A stretch of 64,000 bases of DNA, from contig NZ_QJSM01000020.1 in the NCBI RefSeq assembly GCF_003205235.1, forward strand, positions 62,001-126,000, read 5' to 3'. The DNA is from Thermoplasma sp. Kam2015. GTDB taxonomy: Archaea; Thermoplasmatota; Thermoplasmata; Thermoplasmatales; Thermoplasmataceae. The position numbers and the translations under genes were made by a program. A model generated the notes under the pieces. The model did no database searches and was not told the origin of the DNA. It worked only from the letters and a program-made list of their open reading frames with translations. Shown here piece by piece: positions 52,185-62,002 of this stretch. Position 1 is the stretch's first letter. The number at the start of each line of letters is the position of its first letter.

Positions 52185-52527
52185 TACAATACCTACAATA
52201 CCAACATGGTATCAATGGAATTATGAATTCCTTACGTATTTTACAGAATTTCAGGCATAGGATAGGATTTCAGTGATCATTTGGTATTGTTACATAGTAT
52301 TGTAAAGCTACAATACCATTAAAATCTCGTATTTTATGGGCTTTTCTATAAATCTATATGTAGGGGTATTGTATGAATTTATAATTGGTATTGTATAGGT
52401 TAATTTTTGTATTGTATAATTAAACAATTCAATCTAATGCATGCGATCTTTTTGTCCAACTGTCTATCTCTTAGGATTCGCCCCATATGGTATTGCATTA
52501 TGGTATGTAAAATATATTATCAATACC
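52185..52527. repeat. Iteron-like array of the 9-mer GGTATTGTA
   Basis: Five exact copies: TACAATACC at 52185-52193, 52194-52202 (directly adjoining) and 52309-52317; GGTATTGTA at 52365-52373 and 52387-52395. One-mismatch copies lie at 52283-52291, 52296-52304, 52408-52416 and 52489-52497, and a weaker one at 52519-52527. Copies 52296 and 52309 form an inverted pair around AAGC. They end just before the promoter of the HTH gene at 52562, so they look like operator sites or replication iterons. I saw no copies elsewhere in the window by eye. Confidence 0.75.
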
Positions 52528-52531
52528 ATAA

Positions 52532-52545
52532 TATTAATATATAAT
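52532..52545 (+). promoter_or_regulatory. TATA-like box of the HTH/coiled-coil gene
   Basis: TATTAATATATAAT is centred about 24 bases before the ATG at 52562, directly after the last repeat copy; a protein bound there could block TBP/TFB. Confidence 0.6.
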
Positions 52546-52561
52546 GATGCATTGACTGTTT

Positions 52562-53089
52562 ATGAGCAAAAAAGATGGCGAAATAGTCTATCTGATCAGA
52601 GCAGGCTATTCGCCTACAACTATAAGGAAGAAGACCGGAACCAGCATAAGGCACATCGAGGTAGTCTATAGAAGTATAAAGGATGATCTTGATCCGGAGC
52701 TCTGTGACGCATACGATTATAAATTCGCAGAGCTGAAGGAGAAGAACTACGATCATGTCAATGATGCTAAGGAGAGGCAAAGCCAGTTAAGGGATCCGGA
52801 CATAATGAGACAGGAGCAGGAAAAGAAGATAACCAGCGCCCAGCAGGCAATCGGCGTCTCAAAGGAGATAATGCAGGACTGGGAGGAGCGCCTTCGTGCC
52901 GCAAAGAAGATGAAGGAATGGAACGATAAGTACGGCTTCCTGATCAAGGGCTTGGCCTTCAAGGACTTTGAAGATATGATAGAGCATCTGATGCCACTGC
53001 TTGTTGGATTATACAAGAATTCAACCGCAAGCGTATTCGATGAAGTTCTCGATATAGCTGCCGCCCGCAAACTGGCCGATCTTTTATGA
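52562..53089 (+). CDS. Orphan HTH/coiled-coil protein
   Basis: A 175-residue protein I cannot assign to a family. Residues 6-40 look like a helix-turn-helix (VYLIRAGYSPTTIRKKTGTS then IRHIEVVYRSI), similar in layout to small resolvase- or sigma-type HTHs. Residues 45-125 are highly charged and helical, probably a coiled coil that dimerises it. The last 50 residues (FEDMIEHLMPLLVGLYK, then DIAAARKLADLL) are amphipathic helices. Its codon use is richer in G+C than the flanking debris, so it seems maintained. The iteron-like array directly upstream suggests autoregulation or a plasmid-type replication/partition role. Confidence 0.7.
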   Translation: MSKKDGEIVYLIRAGYSPTTIRKKTGTSIRHIEVVYRSIKDDLDPELCDAYDYKFAELKEKNYDHVNDAKERQSQLRDPDIMRQEQEKKITSAQQAIGVSKEIMQDWEERLRAAKKMKEWNDKYGFLIKGLAFKDFEDMIEHLMPLLVGLYKNSTASVFDEVLDIAAARKLADLL

Positions 53090-53365: not shown

Positions 53366-53640
53366 CTCTCCTATTCATGAGACTGATACTAAGCCTGATG
53401 CGACAAAGATGTTGATCGATAAAGTAATATAATCCCAACAAACGATACGAATTCAAGAATAAACAGCATACGCTTAAAAACATCATGTTTGAGAATGTAA
53501 GGGGATTGGGAAAATACATATCAGGAAAGGTAAAAGAACTTAAGTTCAAGATATCGGACATTGTAATCAAGGAACGATGATATGGAGATGAGACTATTTC
53601 GATCAGTTTCAGCTGGCAGAAAGGATGAGGAAAGCAAATT
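53366..53640 (+). pseudogene. Heavily decayed C-terminal fragment of a cas1-like gene
   Basis: This DNA aligns with 56960-57190 in the other cas1 copy. Matching peptides in several frames are KPDATKMLIDKV, NKQHTLKNIMFENVRGLGKY and ISGKVKELKFKISDIVI, against KPNTAKLLIEKI, NKQHLLENIMFENVRELSRY and ILGKVKELEFRIPDIAM there. Stops and shifts are frequent. Only the helical C-terminal half is left; the catalytic residues are gone. Confidence 0.65.
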
Positions 53641-53749
53641 AACGTCGAATATGAATAGAAAAATTTTTTTAGGACAGAATGATAGATCCTTTAAGGAAAG
53701 CAAGGATAGAAATGAATAAAATTGATTATGAGGAAGAGTATATATATAT

Positions 53750-54376
53750 ATGCACAAAAAACGAATAGCACACATTTTGTCCGTTGTCTCTAAAGAAGCT
53801 AGAATGGGAGATAAAATAGGAATAATAGGCTATTCTGTGTTTGATGATATGTTTAGAGAACATATTAAGAATGCTTTCTTCTATAATATTGTACCGAATG
53901 AGGATTTCATAGAGACAAAGTATCAAAAGTATCATGACTATATAATCTTTTATGATATAACAGATAGTAGCTCTAGTGATCCGCCCATTAAATTTGATTT
54001 GATCATATTTACGGAAGTTCTCGAACATCTTTTGGCAAAAGATGAAATTATATTAATCAACATTTCTAAGCTTATAAAGGATCGTGGAAAACTTATATTT
54101 TCTGTGCCAAATGTATCGGCTCTTGGTAAAATAGTTTCATTAAATTTTGGCAAAAATCCGTATATGACTAAGGATCAAATATTGAACGGGTCTTTTTCTG
54201 GATATGGGCATATAAGAGAATATTCGTTTAACGAGGTTAAGACTCTTCTCTCAAAAAACTTTAGGATTATCCGATTAGAGGGATGGAATGATTATCCTAA
54301 TAAGTTTAATAAAATCTCTAAAATTTTACCAAAAATCTATGCGGAGACAATATTCGCATTGTGCGAGAAACCATAG
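53750..54376 (+). CDS. SAM-dependent methyltransferase (class I)
   Basis: A 208-residue protein of the Methyltransf_11/23 type: a weak motif I (GDKIGIIGYSVFDDM), then FDLIIFTEVLEHLLAKDEI (motif III), and GKLIFSVPNVSALGKI. The late HIREYSFNEVKTLLSK is common in sugar- and lipid-modifying methyltransferases. Glycine-poor motif I is unusual and might weaken SAM binding. The start is uncertain: a TATATATATA run adjoins ATG 53750, and ATG 53804 is an alternative. It converges on a GT4 gene, ending 4 bases away. Confidence 0.72.
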   Translation: MHKKRIAHILSVVSKEARMGDKIGIIGYSVFDDMFREHIKNAFFYNIVPNEDFIETKYQKYHDYIIFYDITDSSSSDPPIKFDLIIFTEVLEHLLAKDEIILINISKLIKDRGKLIFSVPNVSALGKIVSLNFGKNPYMTKDQILNGSFSGYGHIREYSFNEVKTLLSKNFRIIRLEGWNDYPNKFNKISKILPKIYAETIFALCEKP

Positions 54377-54379
54377 TAA

Positions 54380-55579
54380 TCAAGTAATTGCATTGATTAC
54401 ACCTTCTTCATATTTTTTAATTGCATTAATAAATTCTGCTCCCATTTTTTCTAAGGAATAATTTTTTGATGTTTCGATGCCCTTATAGGCCATTTCTATT
54501 CTTTTATCTGGATGATCTACCAATTCGATAACTTTTTTTGCTATAGCTTCTGGATCCATTATAGGAACAAGATGTCCATTGATCCCTTCATTGATCATTT
54601 CTTCTGGCCCACCACATGCTGTAGCAACAGGAACACAACCGCATGACATAGCTTCAAGTACAGGTGTAGAAAAACCTTCCACCAATGATGGCAATATAAA
54701 TATGGAAGCTATGTTGAAGAGCTTAATATATTCTGAATCAGAAACATAGCCATGATGTTCAATATAAATAGGTATTTTTTTATTATAAGTTCCGAAACTT
54801 ATTAATTTCACTTCAGGTCTCATATTTTTTATAATTTCTGCGGCTTTTATTCCGATGTCCCCACCCTTATCTTCTCCTGATCTGAGTTGAATTAATACTA
54901 ACTTGCCATCTCTTTTCTCCGGAGCGATTATGATCTTTCCTTTGATATGAGAAGTCACAGTTATCTTTAAGGGTTTTTCAGTACTAAATCTCTCTAACAT
55001 TTTTCTGTTTATAACGATTTTTTTTAATGGCAAATCATAACTTTCATTAGCTAATTTCGATAAATTCTTAGAAAATGATGGATCGTCTTCATTATTTTGG
55101 ACCAAGTAATATTTTAGGCGAGCATCTTTAGATGAAGCTACAAAGTAGGATGTTTGCCAGGCAGTAGCTATGAGTCGTTCTGTATTAATTTGTGGGATGT
55201 CAGGTGATATTATATAACTAGGATCTTTAAAATTAAGTTCTTTAAGGAACTCATACCTAACATCCGGTATTATTTTTTTTATTAATTTATTTTTTTTCTT
55301 AAGCAGAAAAATAAGGAATCTAATTAAATATTTGCTATTTAGTATTTCATAGATTTTGTATTTCAAAGATTCTTTTTTAAATTCTTCCAGCAATTGTTTA
55401 TCTCTGGTGATTTTATATAATCCTCTATTAATATCTTTAAGAAAAATCAACAGAACACTATATCCTTGGCTAATGAGGTATTCCCTCAATTCAAATACGA
55501 CCAAATAACCTCCAGGCGGTGCGAAACTAAAACCGGGAAGAATGAAAGTGAAATCATAACTTCTATTATATAGTCTCAT
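54380..55579 (-). CDS. Family 4 glycosyltransferase
   Basis: A 399-residue GT-B enzyme. The start FILPGFSFAPPGGYLVVFEL has the GG acceptor loop, and the donor half shows QLRSGEDKGGDIGIKAAEII, LFNIASIFILPSLVEGFSTP, EAMSCGCVPVATACGGPEE and INEGINGHLVP, a complete GT4 signature. TTTATAAATATG lies about 25 bases before the ATG. It probably adds a sugar to the same glycan as its neighbours. Confidence 0.88.
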   Translation of the reverse strand: MRLYNRSYDFTFILPGFSFAPPGGYLVVFELREYLISQGYSVLLIFLKDINRGLYKITRDKQLLEEFKKESLKYKIYEILNSKYLIRFLIFLLKKKNKLIKKIIPDVRYEFLKELNFKDPSYIISPDIPQINTERLIATAWQTSYFVASSKDARLKYYLVQNNEDDPSFSKNLSKLANESYDLPLKKIVINRKMLERFSTEKPLKITVTSHIKGKIIIAPEKRDGKLVLIQLRSGEDKGGDIGIKAAEIIKNMRPEVKLISFGTYNKKIPIYIEHHGYVSDSEYIKLFNIASIFILPSLVEGFSTPVLEAMSCGCVPVATACGGPEEMINEGINGHLVPIMDPEAIAKKVIELVDHPDKRIEMAYKGIETSKNYSLEKMGAEFINAIKKYEEGVINAIT

Positions 55580-55644
55580 TTAATTTGTTCATAATTCACA
55601 TATTTATAAAGTTTCTGACAGTCGATTATTATTTACCCCATTAT

Positions 55645-56505
55645 AGTGTTATGAATTTTGTCTAAATCTCTGGAACAAAAGAAGTAAATCTCTTGAACCG
55701 AAGAGACACGAATGAATATGGAAAGGTGGATGAGAAAACGACTGTTAAAAGGCTGTGAATGGATATCTGGAAACATTGATGAAAACAGAGAGGAATGTGT
55801 TCATAGATGAGTATGAAAGAACAAAGAATGGATTCTATTACAAAAAAATAAAAACTGAGTTTGGAGAGATAGAAAATCAATCAGTACCAAGAAATATGGG
55901 AGGTAATTTCAGAACTGGAATATTTGATCTTTATTCTCTTCAACACATATATGGATAATTAGGTTAACCATATAACCTTATTAATTATCCATTCTAAGGG
56001 AATATCTACAAGGAAAGCTTAAGAAATAAATTGATAATAATCTGATACAATATTCCAGAACAGATATAGATCATCCATCTCAAGAATAATAAATGCCACT
56101 ATAGAGGAAGTTAATAGATTACATTCAAGATACCTTGATTATAGATACATAGGAATATTCCTTGATGCATTAATTTCCTTTATTCTTCTTCCACGTAAAG
56201 GATACTGTGCAGAAGGAGTCAATAATATTTAACATGGGAATTAAAGAATACCATCTCTCATATACAGAAGTTGTAAAAGACCTATACGGTAGGGATATAA
56301 GAAAGCCTTTGCAGTTCATAATAGATGGTATCCCAAAACTTGATGAGAATATAATAAAGATATTCCAAGAGCTGATTTTCAATTATGCACGGTACATGCA
56401 TCAAGGAACTTTGAATCAGATGTTAGTAAATATGATAAATAAACGATAGATGAACATTTCAAGAGATTCATAAATTAGAATTCAAATTCCTATGGAATAA
56501 TAAAT
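55645..56505 (+). mobile_element. Second degenerate IS256-family copy, 3' truncated
   Basis: The first part (TTATGAATTTTGTCTAAA and onwards) and the encoded KNGFYYKKIKTEFGEIENQS, then PRNMGGNFRTGIFDLYS, match the remnant at 44125. Later pieces KEYHLSYTEVVKDLYGRD and GIPKLDENIIKIFQEL also match. Sequence related to the transposase stops near 56505, where the cas1 fragment begins, so one element interrupted or replaced the other. Confidence 0.75.
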
Positions 56506-56530
56506 ACTCTCGACTGATTATAACATCTAT

Positions 56531-57308
56531 ATGAACAGGAGAAACAAAAAAATTCAGAGAGTTAATTATGACAACATAACCACTCTAATGATATATGAAG
56601 GGTGCATTGCATCGGCTTACTGGTCTGAATTATCTAAAATATTCAATTCGTTGGCCAAGGTTTTTCATTTTGAAACAAGGAAAAACTTATCATATTTGTG
56701 GAACATGAATGCATCCGATCCAGTAAATGCCTTGCTGAACTACGGCTATGCAATACTTGAATCAATAATAAGGAAAGATATCAACACGATAGGTCTTGAC
56801 ATATACATAGGATGTCTGCATGAAACGGCACCGTCCAGCATCCGCCTATTTACGATTTACAGGAACTGTTCAGGTATGTTGTTGATTATTCAGTCATCGA
56901 AGTACTGGAAACAGGATTGAAGAAATCGGATTTCATAACAACCGAGGATTACCATATCAGATTGAAGCCAAATACAGCAAAGCTATTGATTGAGAAAATT
57001 AAGAACAACTTCAACAAGCGTTATGAGTTTAGTAATAAACAGCATTTATTAGAGAACATCATGTTTGAGAATGTCAGGGAATTGAGCAGATACATATTAG
57101 GAAAGGTCAAAGAGCTTGAGTTCAGGATACCTGACATTGCGATGTCAAGGAATGATGACATTGAAATGAGGAATATGGTCATGTCAATTGATCCTGATAA
57201 AAGGAAAGAGTTGAAGATAAACAAATCTACATTGTGGTATGAACAGAAAAAGATTAAAAGGGAAAGACCATAAAGATGTATGGAAAAACAAAGGTGAAGA
57301 TTGAATGA
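56531..57308 (+). pseudogene. cas1: cas1-like integrase gene: N-terminus missing, two frameshifts
   Basis: The sequence is a clear Cas1 catalytic domain. It shows YEGCIASAYW (the active-site Glu at 56597), FHFETRKNLSYLWNMNASDP, VNALLNYGYAILESIIRKD, and GLDIYIGCLHE (the His at 56819). The reading then shifts by one base near 56830 to PPIYDLQELFRYVVDYSVIE, whose Asp (56854-56856) completes the Glu/His/Asp triad. The second frame continues through KPNTAKLLIEKIKNNFNKRY to KINKSTLWYEQKKIK. A second shift near 57258 restores KGKTIKMYGKTKVKIE and a stop at 57308. The N-terminal beta domain (about 130 residues) is absent; IS256 debris takes its place. No cas2, cas4 or repeats lie nearby. Confidence 0.8.
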
Positions 57309-58235
57309 GGCTAACGAATAAAATAAATTACCTTCATCTTCTCCGGAGAAACTTCAATAATTGGTTATCCATTGGATTATATTTATATAGGGGAAAGTGG
57401 GCTCTCCCATCAAACAAGAAATTCCTGGTGGTATTGCGAGATCATACTAGGATCAAACTTTGGGGTTTAGAGATAAATCTCTTGTTTTCCTTATTAAGAA
57501 AGGGAATACATATAAATGATGCACTTGACTGTGTAATCAATAACAGAATCCCATTTAAAAATGAATTTGACGTGGAATATAACATCTCAATAAAGGGGTG
57601 GTGCAATGAAGGAAACATAAATAATGGAAATATTTTTGATGTCTTTTTATCAGAAGAATATCGTTTTTTGAATGTCTTTGAAATGGACGTCATAGATGTA
57701 GGAGCGAGTATCGGTGATTCCCCTATCTATTTTGCCCTGAGAGGAGCAAAGAGAGTAATAGCTTTAGAACCTTTCCCCTATTCATATTCGTTTGCAGAAC
57801 TCAATGTCAAAAAAAAATAACCTGACTAATAAAATAGAAATATTAAACGCGGGATATGGTGAAGATGGATTTGTTATCGTTGATCCAGATAAAGAATCTT
57901 TTGACTATACTCAACTATCTGCTTCTGACAAAGGAATAAAGATTCCAATATATTCATTGAAGACCTTAATTGATCATTACCAAATTCATGAAGCGGTATT
58001 GAAAATGGATTGTGAAGGTTGTGAATATAATCTTTTAAAGGAAAATAACGAAATATTAAGGAAATTTAAACAAATTCAGATCGAATACCATTATGGCTAT
58101 GTGGAGTTGAGGAAAAAACTCATGAATGCAGGATTCGACGTAAGGTATACGCAGCCACATAAATTTTATGATCGAAGAGAAAAGATAAATCCTAATATGG
58201 AACTGGGATATGTCTACGCTGTCAGAATGGACTAA
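57305..58235 (+). pseudogene. FkbM-family methyltransferase with frameshift at an A9 run
   Basis: Two overlapping frames (57305-57820 and 57792-58235) form one FkbM protein of about 310 residues. The first holds motif I, MDVIDVGASIGDSPIYFALRG and ALEPFPYSYSFAELNV, and stops after KKK; the second takes over at KKNNLTNKIEILNAGYG and contains the hallmark VLKMDCEGCEYNLLKE. The break is nine A at 57809-57817; eight would restore the frame. Its ATG overlaps the cas1 stop. A programmed slip or a sequencing error at the homopolymer is possible. It may have been an active sugar O-methyltransferase until recently. Confidence 0.8.
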
Positions 58236-58278
58236 ATTCTGCTTTCTTATCTGATAGTCAGACTAAACTTGAGAAGAA

Positions 58279-58701
58279 TTGTCGTTGCCTTCACGGGAAT
58301 ACTTGCATATCTTAGAGGACGTCCTGGCACAGTATGTAAGGTATGATGATCACAAATTCGATTACATCGATAACATAACTGTTAAGAAGCACATCATTGC
58401 TGGCCGCATTCGATACATTGGTAAGGAAACTAATAACCTCGATGAAGTTGAGATAACTGGATTAGATGAAGATTATTACTTAGAGTATACAAAGGATCAT
58501 GAGATTGTTAACAGCAAGGAATTTCTTGATTGGGTTTTAACGTTGAAGCCGAAGAATATCAGAGATAGGGGAATATCACATCAAGCCCTATATTACCAAA
58601 GAACAATAATTAAAAACGGAAAGAGTTTAAACGTTAAACAAAAAGTTGTTAAAAACTTATTACAACTATACAAGGAGACTGTATTAAAAAACAAAAAATA
58701 A
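58279..58701 (+). CDS. Uncharacterised ORF with a Cas1-like C-terminal tail
   Basis: A 140-residue frame starting with TTG at 58279 after a stop at 58270; the true 5' end is uncertain and it may be truncated. The last 60 residues, LDWVLTLKPKNIRDRGISHQ then ALYYQRTIIKNGKSLNVK, parallel the tail of the cas1 copy: INKSTLWYEQKKIK followed by KGKTIKMYGKTKVK. The region looks like a helix-turn-helix. The first 80 residues (LEDVLAQYVRYDDHKFDYI and so on) resemble nothing I know. It may be a standalone DNA-binding protein or the remaining end of a third cas1-like gene. Confidence 0.45.
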   Translation: MSLPSREYLHILEDVLAQYVRYDDHKFDYIDNITVKKHIIAGRIRYIGKETNNLDEVEITGLDEDYYLEYTKDHEIVNSKEFLDWVLTLKPKNIRDRGISHQALYYQRTIIKNGKSLNVKQKVVKNLLQLYKETVLKNKK

Positions 58702-59750
58702 TATTTTTATTCTAAGATTTTACTTTATATAAGGTGCAAAAGTTTTCGGCTTGTCTATATCCCCCGACATATAATGGACCTTAAAAAATCTGAACTATCA
58801 TTAATATAGGTGTATCTTGTCCTACGCTGTATAACCGTAGTTATACGGCGATATTGATTGACAACCATCTATCAATATATCCTGCCTTGTTTGGCCATGA
58901 AATTATGACAACCATGGTTAGTGATAAAATGGATCGGATATTTAGTTTACAGCTTTATGAAATGTCAAGCCCACCAGTATACGCAATTGAATCTAAAAAG
59001 GCCTTTACAGGACCTATGTTGCCTTAATACGCCTTGGAGCATGGTAATGGAATGTTGGTAAATCCAAGAGAAGGTAGATGAATAAATTGGCCATTTATAA
59101 AATAGCAGATAGACCATAACAACTGAATCATAATAAGTTGCTGCATTCAATATTAATCAAAAGAAGGCATTATAGAGCGACACTCATCCCTATTGTATAG
59201 TCCCTTATTATGTCTATGGAATATCGAAATAAATACTATTTTATATTGAAGAATGTCTACAAATAAAAGATATTATACGATTGTATTTTATCTATGATGA
59301 ATTTATAATCGATTCTAGGAGATCTGATCTCATTGTCGATACAAATACATTCTATGCGTGCATAATACATTTACGAGCGTTGGTTATGAAAATTCATAGA
59401 TTTCAATTCATGTTAAGCGATATACAATATCATATTTTTAAAGAATCGAAATTAACAATATAAAGTTCTATATCATGCGGGAAAATAAGATGAGAGCCAT
59501 GATTCTTACAAATTATTCAGAAATAATATGCGTTGGAAAATATGAAATCAGGACATCTACCTATTATATGACATCGAACTTTGGGATAGCACTTCTTGAG
59601 TGCGACTTCAATACAAAGTGTTTCCCATCATAAATGTATTGTGAAATATGCACTACTTAATCTCGATAAAAGCGATATTTAGAAGATTCAATATCGCAAG
59701 TTCACTTACTTAAATATTCAATGCAATCCTGGTGTAATACCTTATGAATT
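58702..59750. other. Long spacer with one hairpin, no gene seen
   Basis: About 1 kb without a credible frame. A hairpin lies at 58825-58850. The rest is AT-rich and peppered with stops on both strands; it may contain decayed elements too old to name. Confidence 0.4.
58825..58850. repeat. 11-bp inverted repeat (hairpin)
   Basis: CGCTGTATAAC (58825-58835) and GTTATACGGCG (58840-58850) pair with a single G-U-type mismatch around a CGTA loop. The stability suggests an RNA hairpin or a subterminal hairpin of a lost IS200/IS605 element. Confidence 0.5.
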
Positions 59751-59805: not shown

Positions 59806-59839
59806 GTGAGCTACTCCTAAGTTAAAGCATCGGAGCTTC
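59806..59839 (-). mobile_element. Right-end motif of the solo TnpB element (omega RNA 3' part)
   Basis: Read on the minus strand it starts inside the last tnpB codons with GAAGCTCCGATG and ends with CTTAGGAGTAGCTCAC after the stop. CTCC and GGAG can pair. Similar strings at 9143-9175 and 61093-61123 mark other right ends. In IS605/IS1341 elements the omega RNA scaffold ends here and the guide comes from the flanking DNA. Confidence 0.55.
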
Positions 59840-61036
59840 CTTTCGTCGAAGAGACCTCTGCCTTTCCGGACATCCGTACAAGCCCGATGTTGCGATCTCC
59901 ATAGGCGTGAATTCGGATCGCACCGATCCTACTCTTATCAATCCTATTTTCCTTATGTTCTTTGATGCGTTGTGATCCCTGTCTATGATGAGACCACATA
60001 CATCACAATGATATATGCGATCTGATAACTTCAGATCATGCTTTATGTTACCGCATGATGAACATATCTTAGATGATGGATCGAATCTTCCTATCCCTAT
60101 TATATTCTTTCCATATTTTTCTGCTTTCCATTCCAGTCTCTGCTTGAAGGAATAGAAAGAAACATCGTTCAGACTCTTCGATATATGATGGTTCTGCATC
60201 ATTCCTTTTACGTTCAGATCTTCGATGATGATGGTATCGTACTGCTTGGCTATCGCAGTCGATATTTTATCATCGAAGTCCTCACGCATGTTTCTCAGCT
60301 TCATGTACTCTTTCTGTAATTTAAGTATATGCTTCCTTCTATTCTTCGATCCATTCTGCTTTCTCGATAGCTGCTTCTGGAGTTTCTTTATCCTTTTCTC
60401 TAGCTTCTTTATGAATCCTGGATTCTCTATTGCTATACCGGGGGAAAGAGTTGCAAATTTCTCGATGCCTAGATCTATGCCAACGGAGTTCTCTGCAGAT
60501 AATGGCTTCTTCTCTGGTAGTTCCTCTGGTATCTCATATATTATGGAGCAGTAGTAATAACCTGAATCCTTGGTTATTACTATCTCGTTGATGTCTTTAA
60601 TCTCGGACAGCTTCTTCTCAGAGCCCTTGAAGTATATGCCTTCTGAGAACTTTGGGAAATATATTCTGTTTCCTTGAATTTTGATGTGCTGTGGTACTGC
60701 AAAGTATTCGTTGATACCTTTCTTTTTGAATTTAGGATGTTCAGTATTCTTATGGAAGAAGTTCTTGAATGCATTGTCTAAGAAACGTAGGGACATCTGT
60801 AAGGATTGTGAGTTTATTTCATACAGCCATGGATATTCCTTCTTGAGTTCGATGAGCATGTTCTGTGTGTCCAGATAGCTCAATGAAGATTTCTCCGCAT
60901 CCCTATGCGTTATATAGTATTCATCCCTCTTCGCTAAGAAGTAATTGTATACGAATCTACAGCTGCCAAAGTGCTTCTCCAGTAAAATTTTCTGTCTTTC
61001 ATTTGGATACAGCTTCACTTTGGCAGCCGTTATCAT
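59822..61036 (-). CDS. tnpB: TnpB RNA-guided nuclease of a solo IS605/IS1341-type element
   Basis: A 404-residue full-length TnpB. The RuvC residues are D188 (VGIDLGIEKFATL), E272 (IIIEDLNVKGM) and D354 (IDRDHNASKNI); the zinc finger is C325-C328 and C344-C347 (CSSCGN, CDVCG). The N-terminal wedge part (KVKLYPNERQKILLEKHFGS) is typical. No tnpA lies nearby, so transposition would need one elsewhere. TATAAATAAT lies 26 bases before the ATG. All catalytic and metal residues are intact, so this is the only apparently functional mobile-element protein in the window. TnpB cuts DNA at sites next to a short TAM, guided by omega RNA. Confidence 0.93.
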   Translation of the reverse strand: MITAAKVKLYPNERQKILLEKHFGSCRFVYNYFLAKRDEYYITHRDAEKSSLSYLDTQNMLIELKKEYPWLYEINSQSLQMSLRFLDNAFKNFFHKNTEHPKFKKKGINEYFAVPQHIKIQGNRIYFPKFSEGIYFKGSEKKLSEIKDINEIVITKDSGYYYCSIIYEIPEELPEKKPLSAENSVGIDLGIEKFATLSPGIAIENPGFIKKLEKRIKKLQKQLSRKQNGSKNRRKHILKLQKEYMKLRNMREDFDDKISTAIAKQYDTIIIEDLNVKGMMQNHHISKSLNDVSFYSFKQRLEWKAEKYGKNIIGIGRFDPSSKICSSCGNIKHDLKLSDRIYHCDVCGLIIDRDHNASKNIRKIGLIRVGSVRSEFTPMEIATSGLYGCPERQRSLRRKEAPML

Positions 61037-61302: not shown

Positions 61303-61587
61303 ATGGTTAAAAGCAAGATAACAGTATCTGTAGATAAATCGGTGATCGAAAATGCAAAGTTAGCCCTGTTGAAAAAACGGAGGACACTTAGCGATTACAT
61401 AGAAAAATCACTTCGATCACTTTCAACATCAGAGATCATTACTGATCTATGCGAGGAGCTTGACATTGATTGCGAATACATCACCGGAGAGAATGTTGAG
61501 AGGAACAGACCTGATCTTACTGGCAAGGCCTTGGCAGAAAATGAAATAAAGGAGATGAGGGGTGAACGTGCCTCGCATCTATCTTGA
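61303..61587 (+). CDS. vapB: VapB-like antitoxin (DUF6364-type ribbon-helix-helix)
   Basis: A 94-residue protein. KITVSVDKSVIENAKLALLKKR then TLSDYIEKSLRSL is a ribbon-helix-helix of the DUF6364 kind; the acidic tail after residue 50 is the likely toxin-binding part. Its last 26 bases overlap the toxin gene. It would neutralise the PIN-domain ribonuclease and repress the operon through the palindrome at 61287-61298. Confidence 0.82.
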   Translation: MVKSKITVSVDKSVIENAKLALLKKRRTLSDYIEKSLRSLSTSEIITDLCEELDIDCEYITGENVERNRPDLTGKALAENEIKEMRGERASHLS

Positions 61588-62002
61588 TACCAGCATCTTG
61601 GTCAAGAGATATGTTAAGGAGGAAGGAAGCGCAATAGCTGATGAATATTTCCATCAAGCGGAAAGAGGAGAGTCGGTTATCTGCTTATCTGAAATCAATC
61701 TTGGTGAAGCGGCCGTTGTCTTCGATAAATACTCTAGGAAGATGGATATTGATGCGAGGAATCGCATGCAGGTTATGTTAAGCGAACTACGATCCCTTGA
61801 AAGATCCTCTTCAGTGGAAATATATCCCGTTGACAGTCATACCTTAAGAAAAGCAATCAAAATTGTTCTGGAATACCATATATATGTGGTGGATGCAATT
61901 CAACTTGAGACCTGTATTGAAGCGGGTGCAACGCTTTTCTGCTCTGGAGATACGGAACTCAATGCTATCGCCAGGAGAATCGGCATCGAGACCGTACCCT
62001 AA
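61562..62002 (+). CDS. vapC: VapC PIN-domain toxin ribonuclease
   Basis: A 146-residue PIN protein starting with GTG inside the antitoxin gene. The acidic metal site is visible: LDTSILVKRYV (first Asp), SEINLGEAAV (Glu), VVDAIQLETC (Asp) and CSGDTELNAIA (last Asp). VapC toxins cleave tRNA or rRNA when the antitoxin is degraded. Overlap with the antitoxin gene couples their synthesis. All key residues are present, so the pair may be active; it lies beside the solo tnpB, in the mobile part of the window. Confidence 0.9.
   Translation: MNVPRIYLDTSILVKRYVKEEGSAIADEYFHQAERGESVICLSEINLGEAAVVFDKYSRKMDIDARNRMQVMLSELRSLERSSSVEIYPVDSHTLRKAIKIVLEYHIYVVDAIQLETCIEAGATLFCSGDTELNAIARRIGIETVP

Follow-up and report, generated by a model that had tools for sequence, protein, structure and literature searches.

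A decayed family 2 casposon very probably accounts for the Cas1 fragments of Thermoplasma sp. Kam2015

Background

Several Cas1-like fragments lie in a stretch of DNA from Thermoplasma sp. Kam2015 (hereafter the window: the whole 64,000 nucleotides analysed), and they raise the question of what kind of element left them there. Casposons are transposons moved by a Cas1-type enzyme and are thought to be ancestral to CRISPR. A first, sequence-only reading of the window had proposed that the fragments were relics of a casposon or of a Cas1-solo element, or else debris of a lost CRISPR locus. We conclude that the window very probably holds the decayed tRNA-side end of one or more family 2 casposons in this Thermoplasmatales archaeon, with at least two stacked Cas1-cargo units facing the target, and that the element is incapable of moving by itself at present. 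Casposons, their tails, their tRNA targets and their tandem decay were already known; the window adds a newly found, decayed family 2 casposon, the stacked-cargo layout of which is unusual.

Results

Features of the window

The features on which the argument is built are listed below with their coordinates in the window, their strand and, in brackets, their basis.

53431-53716, plus strand: cas1 relic no. 2, the degenerate 3' end of a casposase gene, with frame breaks (DNA identity to relic no. 1)
53715-54376, plus strand: SAM-dependent methyltransferase that relic no. 2 probably carried as cargo (Pfam Methyltransf_23/12, E about 1e-5; adjoins the 3' end of Cas1)
55755-56449, plus strand: probable IS256/Mutator-type transposase relic, directly 5' of the truncated cas1 (Transposase_mut for 55755-55955)
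56507-57308, plus strand: cas1 relic no. 1, casposase catalytic domain and C-terminal HTH-like tail (Pfam, 6opm match, tree, tail HMM)
57305-58235, plus strand: FkbM-family methyltransferase, probable cargo, its ATG overlapping the cas1 stop as GAATGA (Methyltransf_21, E=5e-7; same junction in relatives)
58279-58701, plus strand: C-terminal part, about 140 residues, of a casposon family B DNA polymerase (PolB), with HTH-like tail and open frame (match to the PolB of relative G039)
58733-58764, minus strand: tRNA-side terminal inverted repeat (TIR), GGGGATATAGACAAGCCGAAAACTTTTGCACC (TIRs of relatives; exact core GGGATATAGACAAG)
58765-58778, minus strand: presumed target site, TCCATTATATGTCG (where intact relatives have their 14-bp target-site duplication, TSD)
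58787-58793, minus strand: degenerate casposase leader motif TCAGATT, tRNA T-loop-like (-15 to -9 from the target; TCAAATC in A. boonei)

Two cas1 relics

Relic no. 1 contains, as the sequence-only reading had recognised at 56531-57308, a Cas1 catalytic domain with the Glu/His/Asp triad. It is matched by Pfam Cas_Cas1 (E=1.2e-20), and its Glu (YEG), His (LHE) and Asp (YDLQE) align with their counterparts in the A. boonei casposase 6opm. The two listed ORFs (56531-56920 and 56917-57273) are a single broken gene in two frames, with homology segments at 56507-56839 and 56836-57294 and a frame change near 56838, which was read through for search purposes only. Since the Cas_Cas1 match starts at profile position 140 of 283, the gene is 5'-truncated and has lost its N-terminal domain. 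The closest PDB chain is 6opm (E=1e-44, tail included; runner-up chain 3e-11), with which the frameshifted window protein aligns across the catalytic domain and the tail, and relic no. 1 matches the Thermogymnomonas casposase at 79%.

Relic no. 2 had likewise been noticed as a decayed second copy, and its existence is borne out by 80% DNA identity between 53436-53563 and 57012-57139; its extent, given before as 53366-53640, is in fact larger, from 53431 to about 53716, where the degenerate alignment reaches the cas1 3' end (stop / GAATGA region). A degenerate GAATGA-type junction stands there ahead of the SAM methyltransferase, the ORF of which opens at 53750 with a likely original start at 53715 and a frame break in a TA repeat; from its junction position this gene is probably the cargo of relic no. 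2. Further upstream, repeated GGTATTGTA / TACAATACC motifs were seen at 52290-52540, before ORF 52562-53089 (175 aa, HTH-like start).

The Transposase_mut match directly 5' of relic no. 1 (E=0.0015) is under the curated cut-off, and ORF 56207-56449 had no Pfam match, its transposase label resting on sequence appearance. A possible IS256-type transposase relic also lies directly upstream of a truncated cas1 in G015 (L045:9290-10231); no significant match was found between the two relics.

Casposase or CRISPR Cas1

Could the fragments be debris of a lost CRISPR-Cas locus? Their Cas1 homology and the two CRISPR-cas loci of this genome favour such a view; indeed, the Cas1 proteins of these loci (contigs C42 and C43) have the Cas1 fold and the catalytic residues in common with the window protein, but they are about 320 aa long, are tail-less, stand with cas2 and effector genes and fall outside the casposase clade. 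In genome-wide Pfam searches, cas2 occurred on C42 and C43 only, beside intact cas1 and effector genes (one of the two loci has a long repeat array), and no repeat array was found within the window, in line with the earlier remark that cas2, effector and array were not near the Cas1 fragments. The sequence-only reading had proposed a Cas1 tree as a check, and our maximum-likelihood tree comprises 30 CRISPR Cas1 of the same family and nine casposase-type rows (the window row frame-corrected; the A. boonei row taken from PDB alignment text, with a few residues missing; long branches flagged by the tree tool). The nine casposase-type rows, window and A. boonei included, are split from the CRISPR Cas1 at a 100/100 branch, and the window protein groups with none of the latter. 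A tail HMM matched 9/9 casposases (window E=6e-31) and 0/30 CRISPR Cas1. The CRISPR-debris identity was ruled out by the tree, the tail HMM and the array-free window, the PolB tail and TIR adjoining the Cas1 fragments speaking against it as well, and we regard it as exceedingly improbable. A domesticated Cas1-solo gene with a host function, not related to transposons, would agree with the fact that a complete transposon is missing from the window, but the relic is truncated and frameshifted and shares the locus with a second, decayed cas1, a TIR and a fragment of PolB, which leaves this explanation next to no credence. Of the options raised at the outset it is the casposon relic that is upheld, by the tree, the PolB fragment, the one TIR and the tRNA-like target.

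The polymerase fragment

The third ORF (58279-58701), previously grouped with the Cas1 fragments on account of an HTH-like tail, turned out not to be Cas1 but the C-terminus of a casposon PolB: it matches residues 742-875 of the 883-aa G039 PolB (E=3e-29) and has homologues in 25 of 61 family genomes. The window retains this C-terminus alone; full-length PolB is present in relatives G039 and JAMCUS. Both the PolB nature of this ORF and the probable cargo role of the methyltransferase genes had been overlooked. The claim of a common tail, on the other hand, survives in a weaker form, since the Cas1 and PolB tails are linked by profile-profile comparison (probability 93%, E=3e-7) while plain BLAST between them gave a signal too weak for homology; the likeness is correct yet distant. 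Krupovic et al. 2014 described this Cas1 tail as confined to family 2 casposon Cas1 and reported a similar tail at the end of casposon PolB (PMC4046053). Single-sequence Pfam and NCBIfam searches of the PolB returned zero matches; a four-sequence PolB profile retrieves family B polymerases. The G039 polymerase has a YCDTDS motif, which fits the PolB_CDTDS group, in which the A. boonei casposon enzyme is included (PMC7544198). A second PolB C-terminal fragment was observed in the same genome (G000:C20:213972-214142, L097; 77% identity to the window ORF over 53 aa), and no TIR was found near it.

The tRNA-side end of the element

Across the 1.79-Mb genome, the family TIR core is matched exactly at one place only, by the GGGATATAGACAAG of the window. 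The window TIR starts 31 bp beyond the PolB stop and its core match (58750-58763) is 49 bp from that stop, comparable to the roughly 40-80 bp that separate core and PolB end in most relatives. It is degenerate, with 3 mismatches in 17 bases, and one such chance match is expected in a third of shuffled windows; because the 17-base match is weak alone, the case for the TIR is built on where it lies, on its exact core of 14 bases and on the register of the target. The site beyond it reads TCAGATT-8nt-TCCA, in exact register with the TCAAATC leader motif and the CC start that the A. boonei casposase needs in its target (PMC6614799); the leader motif agrees at 5 of 7 bases, which has about a 2% chance at a single position. 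ARAGORN found no intact tRNA at this target, which we therefore take for a tRNA end that has decayed or for a site that resembles a tRNA. The search for element hallmarks suggested by the sequence-only reading was thus partly rewarded: a PolB fragment and one TIR were found, and for the left TIR and the second target copy in the window the best matches were at background level. Four congeneric genomes were searched for an empty site and gave no DNA match to the right flank of the element. Beyond the casposon end lie, judging from appearance, a TnpB-like gene (59822-61036, minus strand) and a VapBC-like pair (61303-62002).

Relatives in the family

Of the 77 family genomes, 29 have the TIR core, with 35 matches in all as compared with 4 for a reversed control; when CCCA was required at the fixed distance, the counts were 23 and 0. 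Most of these sites are eroded ends, with a PolB C-terminus followed by the TIR and then by a tRNA for Pro, Val, Ile or Met. One of the genomes with the core, G058, is very probably T. acidophilum DSM 1728. Our literature search, outside the scope of which subscription papers and unpublished surveys fall, turned up no account of casposons from Thermoplasma or its family. In the searchable papers, the one casposon described within or near the order is that of A. boonei, and an acidophile genome is said once to encode a casposon-associated protein (PMC10354927); a casposon survey that is still unpublished is mentioned by one group (PMC9966878).

An apparently intact 11.8-kb element was found in G039 (JAJZJR010000001, Thermoplasmata MAG). 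It encodes PolB, HNH, two more proteins, an HxlR/ArsR-type HTH protein, Cas1, an Mrr nuclease and an Eco57I-type methylase, and ends in perfect 32-bp TIRs with a 14-bp TSD that begins in the final bases of tRNA-Val. G034 (CP009479) has a G039-like gene set at tRNA-Pro with matching TIRs and TSD, its PolB being interrupted by a transposase. HNH and HTH genes are present in G039, G034 and L062 and were not found in the window; their loss through truncation leads us to file the window as a relic and not as a complete element. The 14-bp TSD was found in G039, G034 and also G055 (L046:5702-17046), an 11.3-kb island with both TIRs, matching TSDs, a broken cas1 and a PolB tail only, between the ends of which lie sugar-nucleotide, epimerase and glycosyltransferase genes. 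In Thermogymnomonas acidicola, Cas1 is still full-length, PolB being reduced to its tail. At L056:7654-16130, tandem HEAT-repeat units (about 90% identical) alternate with PolB/Cas1 chimeric tails, which are identical to one another and have their junction inside an 18-bp overlap; a TIR and tRNA-Met adjoin. Family-2-like sets (Cas1, PolB, HNH, p216) were also seen in L058, a MAG labelled Nanoarchaeota with a 123-bp pair near tRNA-Ser, and in L059, labelled Nitrosopumilus, with 50-bp inverted repeats at 242 and 16065; binning errors are possible.

Cargo junction and layout

An ATG overlapping the stop codon, mostly as GAATGA, was present in about 20 of the 33 cas1 3' ends examined, and wherever ORFs were listed this ATG begins another gene. 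These junction genes vary (Eco57I-type methylases, glycosyltransferases, TylF, two FkbM methyltransferases, HEAT-repeat proteins); the FkbM gene of the window is frameshifted near 57800, in an A-run. We infer that cargo genes follow cas1 and that cas1 is lost from the 5' side inwards; a dependence of the downstream gene on coupled translation may be the reason. As each of the two cas1 relics comes with a methyltransferase, the window is read as the remains of at least two Cas1-cargo units.

In the intact elements (G039, G034), cas1 and polB are divergent, whereas in the window and about ten relatives the Cas1 and PolB tails are both directed at the tRNA with cargo in between. This layout could have arisen if elements inserted one after another, in both orientations, at a single site and parts were then deleted; recombination between tails could also have produced it (compare the L056 chimeras). 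Rather than simply decaying, such loci might belong to a class of casposon-derived cargo islands that lack the polymerase (in the order Cas1 tail, cargo, PolB tail, TIR, tRNA) and that a casposase acting in trans, or recombination of one tail with another, has relocated or multiplied as whole units; the window would still be casposon-derived in that case. The recurrence of this order and orientation at different tRNA genes with different cargo points that way, as do the G055 glycan-gene island with its two TIRs and 14-bp TSDs, the L056 units bounded by chimeric tails and the full-length Cas1 of Thermogymnomonas beside a PolB tail; but a distal TIR and TSD are known for just one island (many contigs being short), many Cas1 and some PolB tails contain stops, and the PolB breakpoints are variable. 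The island explanation appears rather unlikely. In its broader form, that Thermoplasmatales harbour polymerase-less derivatives in which exchangeable cargo (DNA-modification, surface-glycan and HEAT-repeat genes) lies between Cas1 and PolB tails by a TIR and a tRNA, and which spread or multiply as units, partly by tail recombination, we put it forward tentatively, as a doubtful proposal.

Discussion

Under the preferred reading of a decaying family 2 casposon, integration would have been the work of a casposase (Cas1 with C-terminal HTH), which linked the inverted repeats at the ends of the element to a tRNA gene at its 3' end with a 14-bp duplication, and replication would have fallen to the casposon-encoded PolB. 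Cargo genes would have followed cas1 immediately, their start codons overlapping its stop, and the units, perhaps inserted serially, would then have eroded from their 5' sides, so that the 3' ends of cas1, two methyltransferase genes that were probably cargo, the C-terminal end of PolB and a single TIR are left; we deduce the stacking and the order of erosion from the structure of the locus.

The closest known systems are the family 2 casposons of A. boonei (AciBoo-C1) and Methanosarcina (PMC4046053), with which the window has in common the HTH-tailed casposase. Of the further hallmarks, the window retains a PolB C-terminus with the related tail, one degenerate TIR and a tRNA-like target, and its intact relatives show the CDTDS-type PolB motif, the HNH and HTH genes, a TIR beginning GGGATATAG, the tRNA 3'-end target and the 14-bp TSD. 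In contrast to these casposons, the window copy is fragmentary, and among its relatives cargo overlaps the cas1 stop and many elements have a PolB tail only, with cas1 facing the tRNA. In M. burtonii and M. psychrophilus (PMC4046053), where casposons occur in tandem or in decay, several elements or remnants likewise accumulate at one site; the description there is of whole elements or remnants side by side, whereas the window is read as stacked units of Cas1 tail and cargo that end in a PolB tail.

Conclusions

More than a third of the 77 family genomes have casposon ends, and one relative holds an element that appears intact. The remnants beside tRNA genes record how Cas1 elements insert, take along cargo and decay, and the GAATGA junction and the Cas1/PolB tail chimeras provide leads on how casposons may capture genes.
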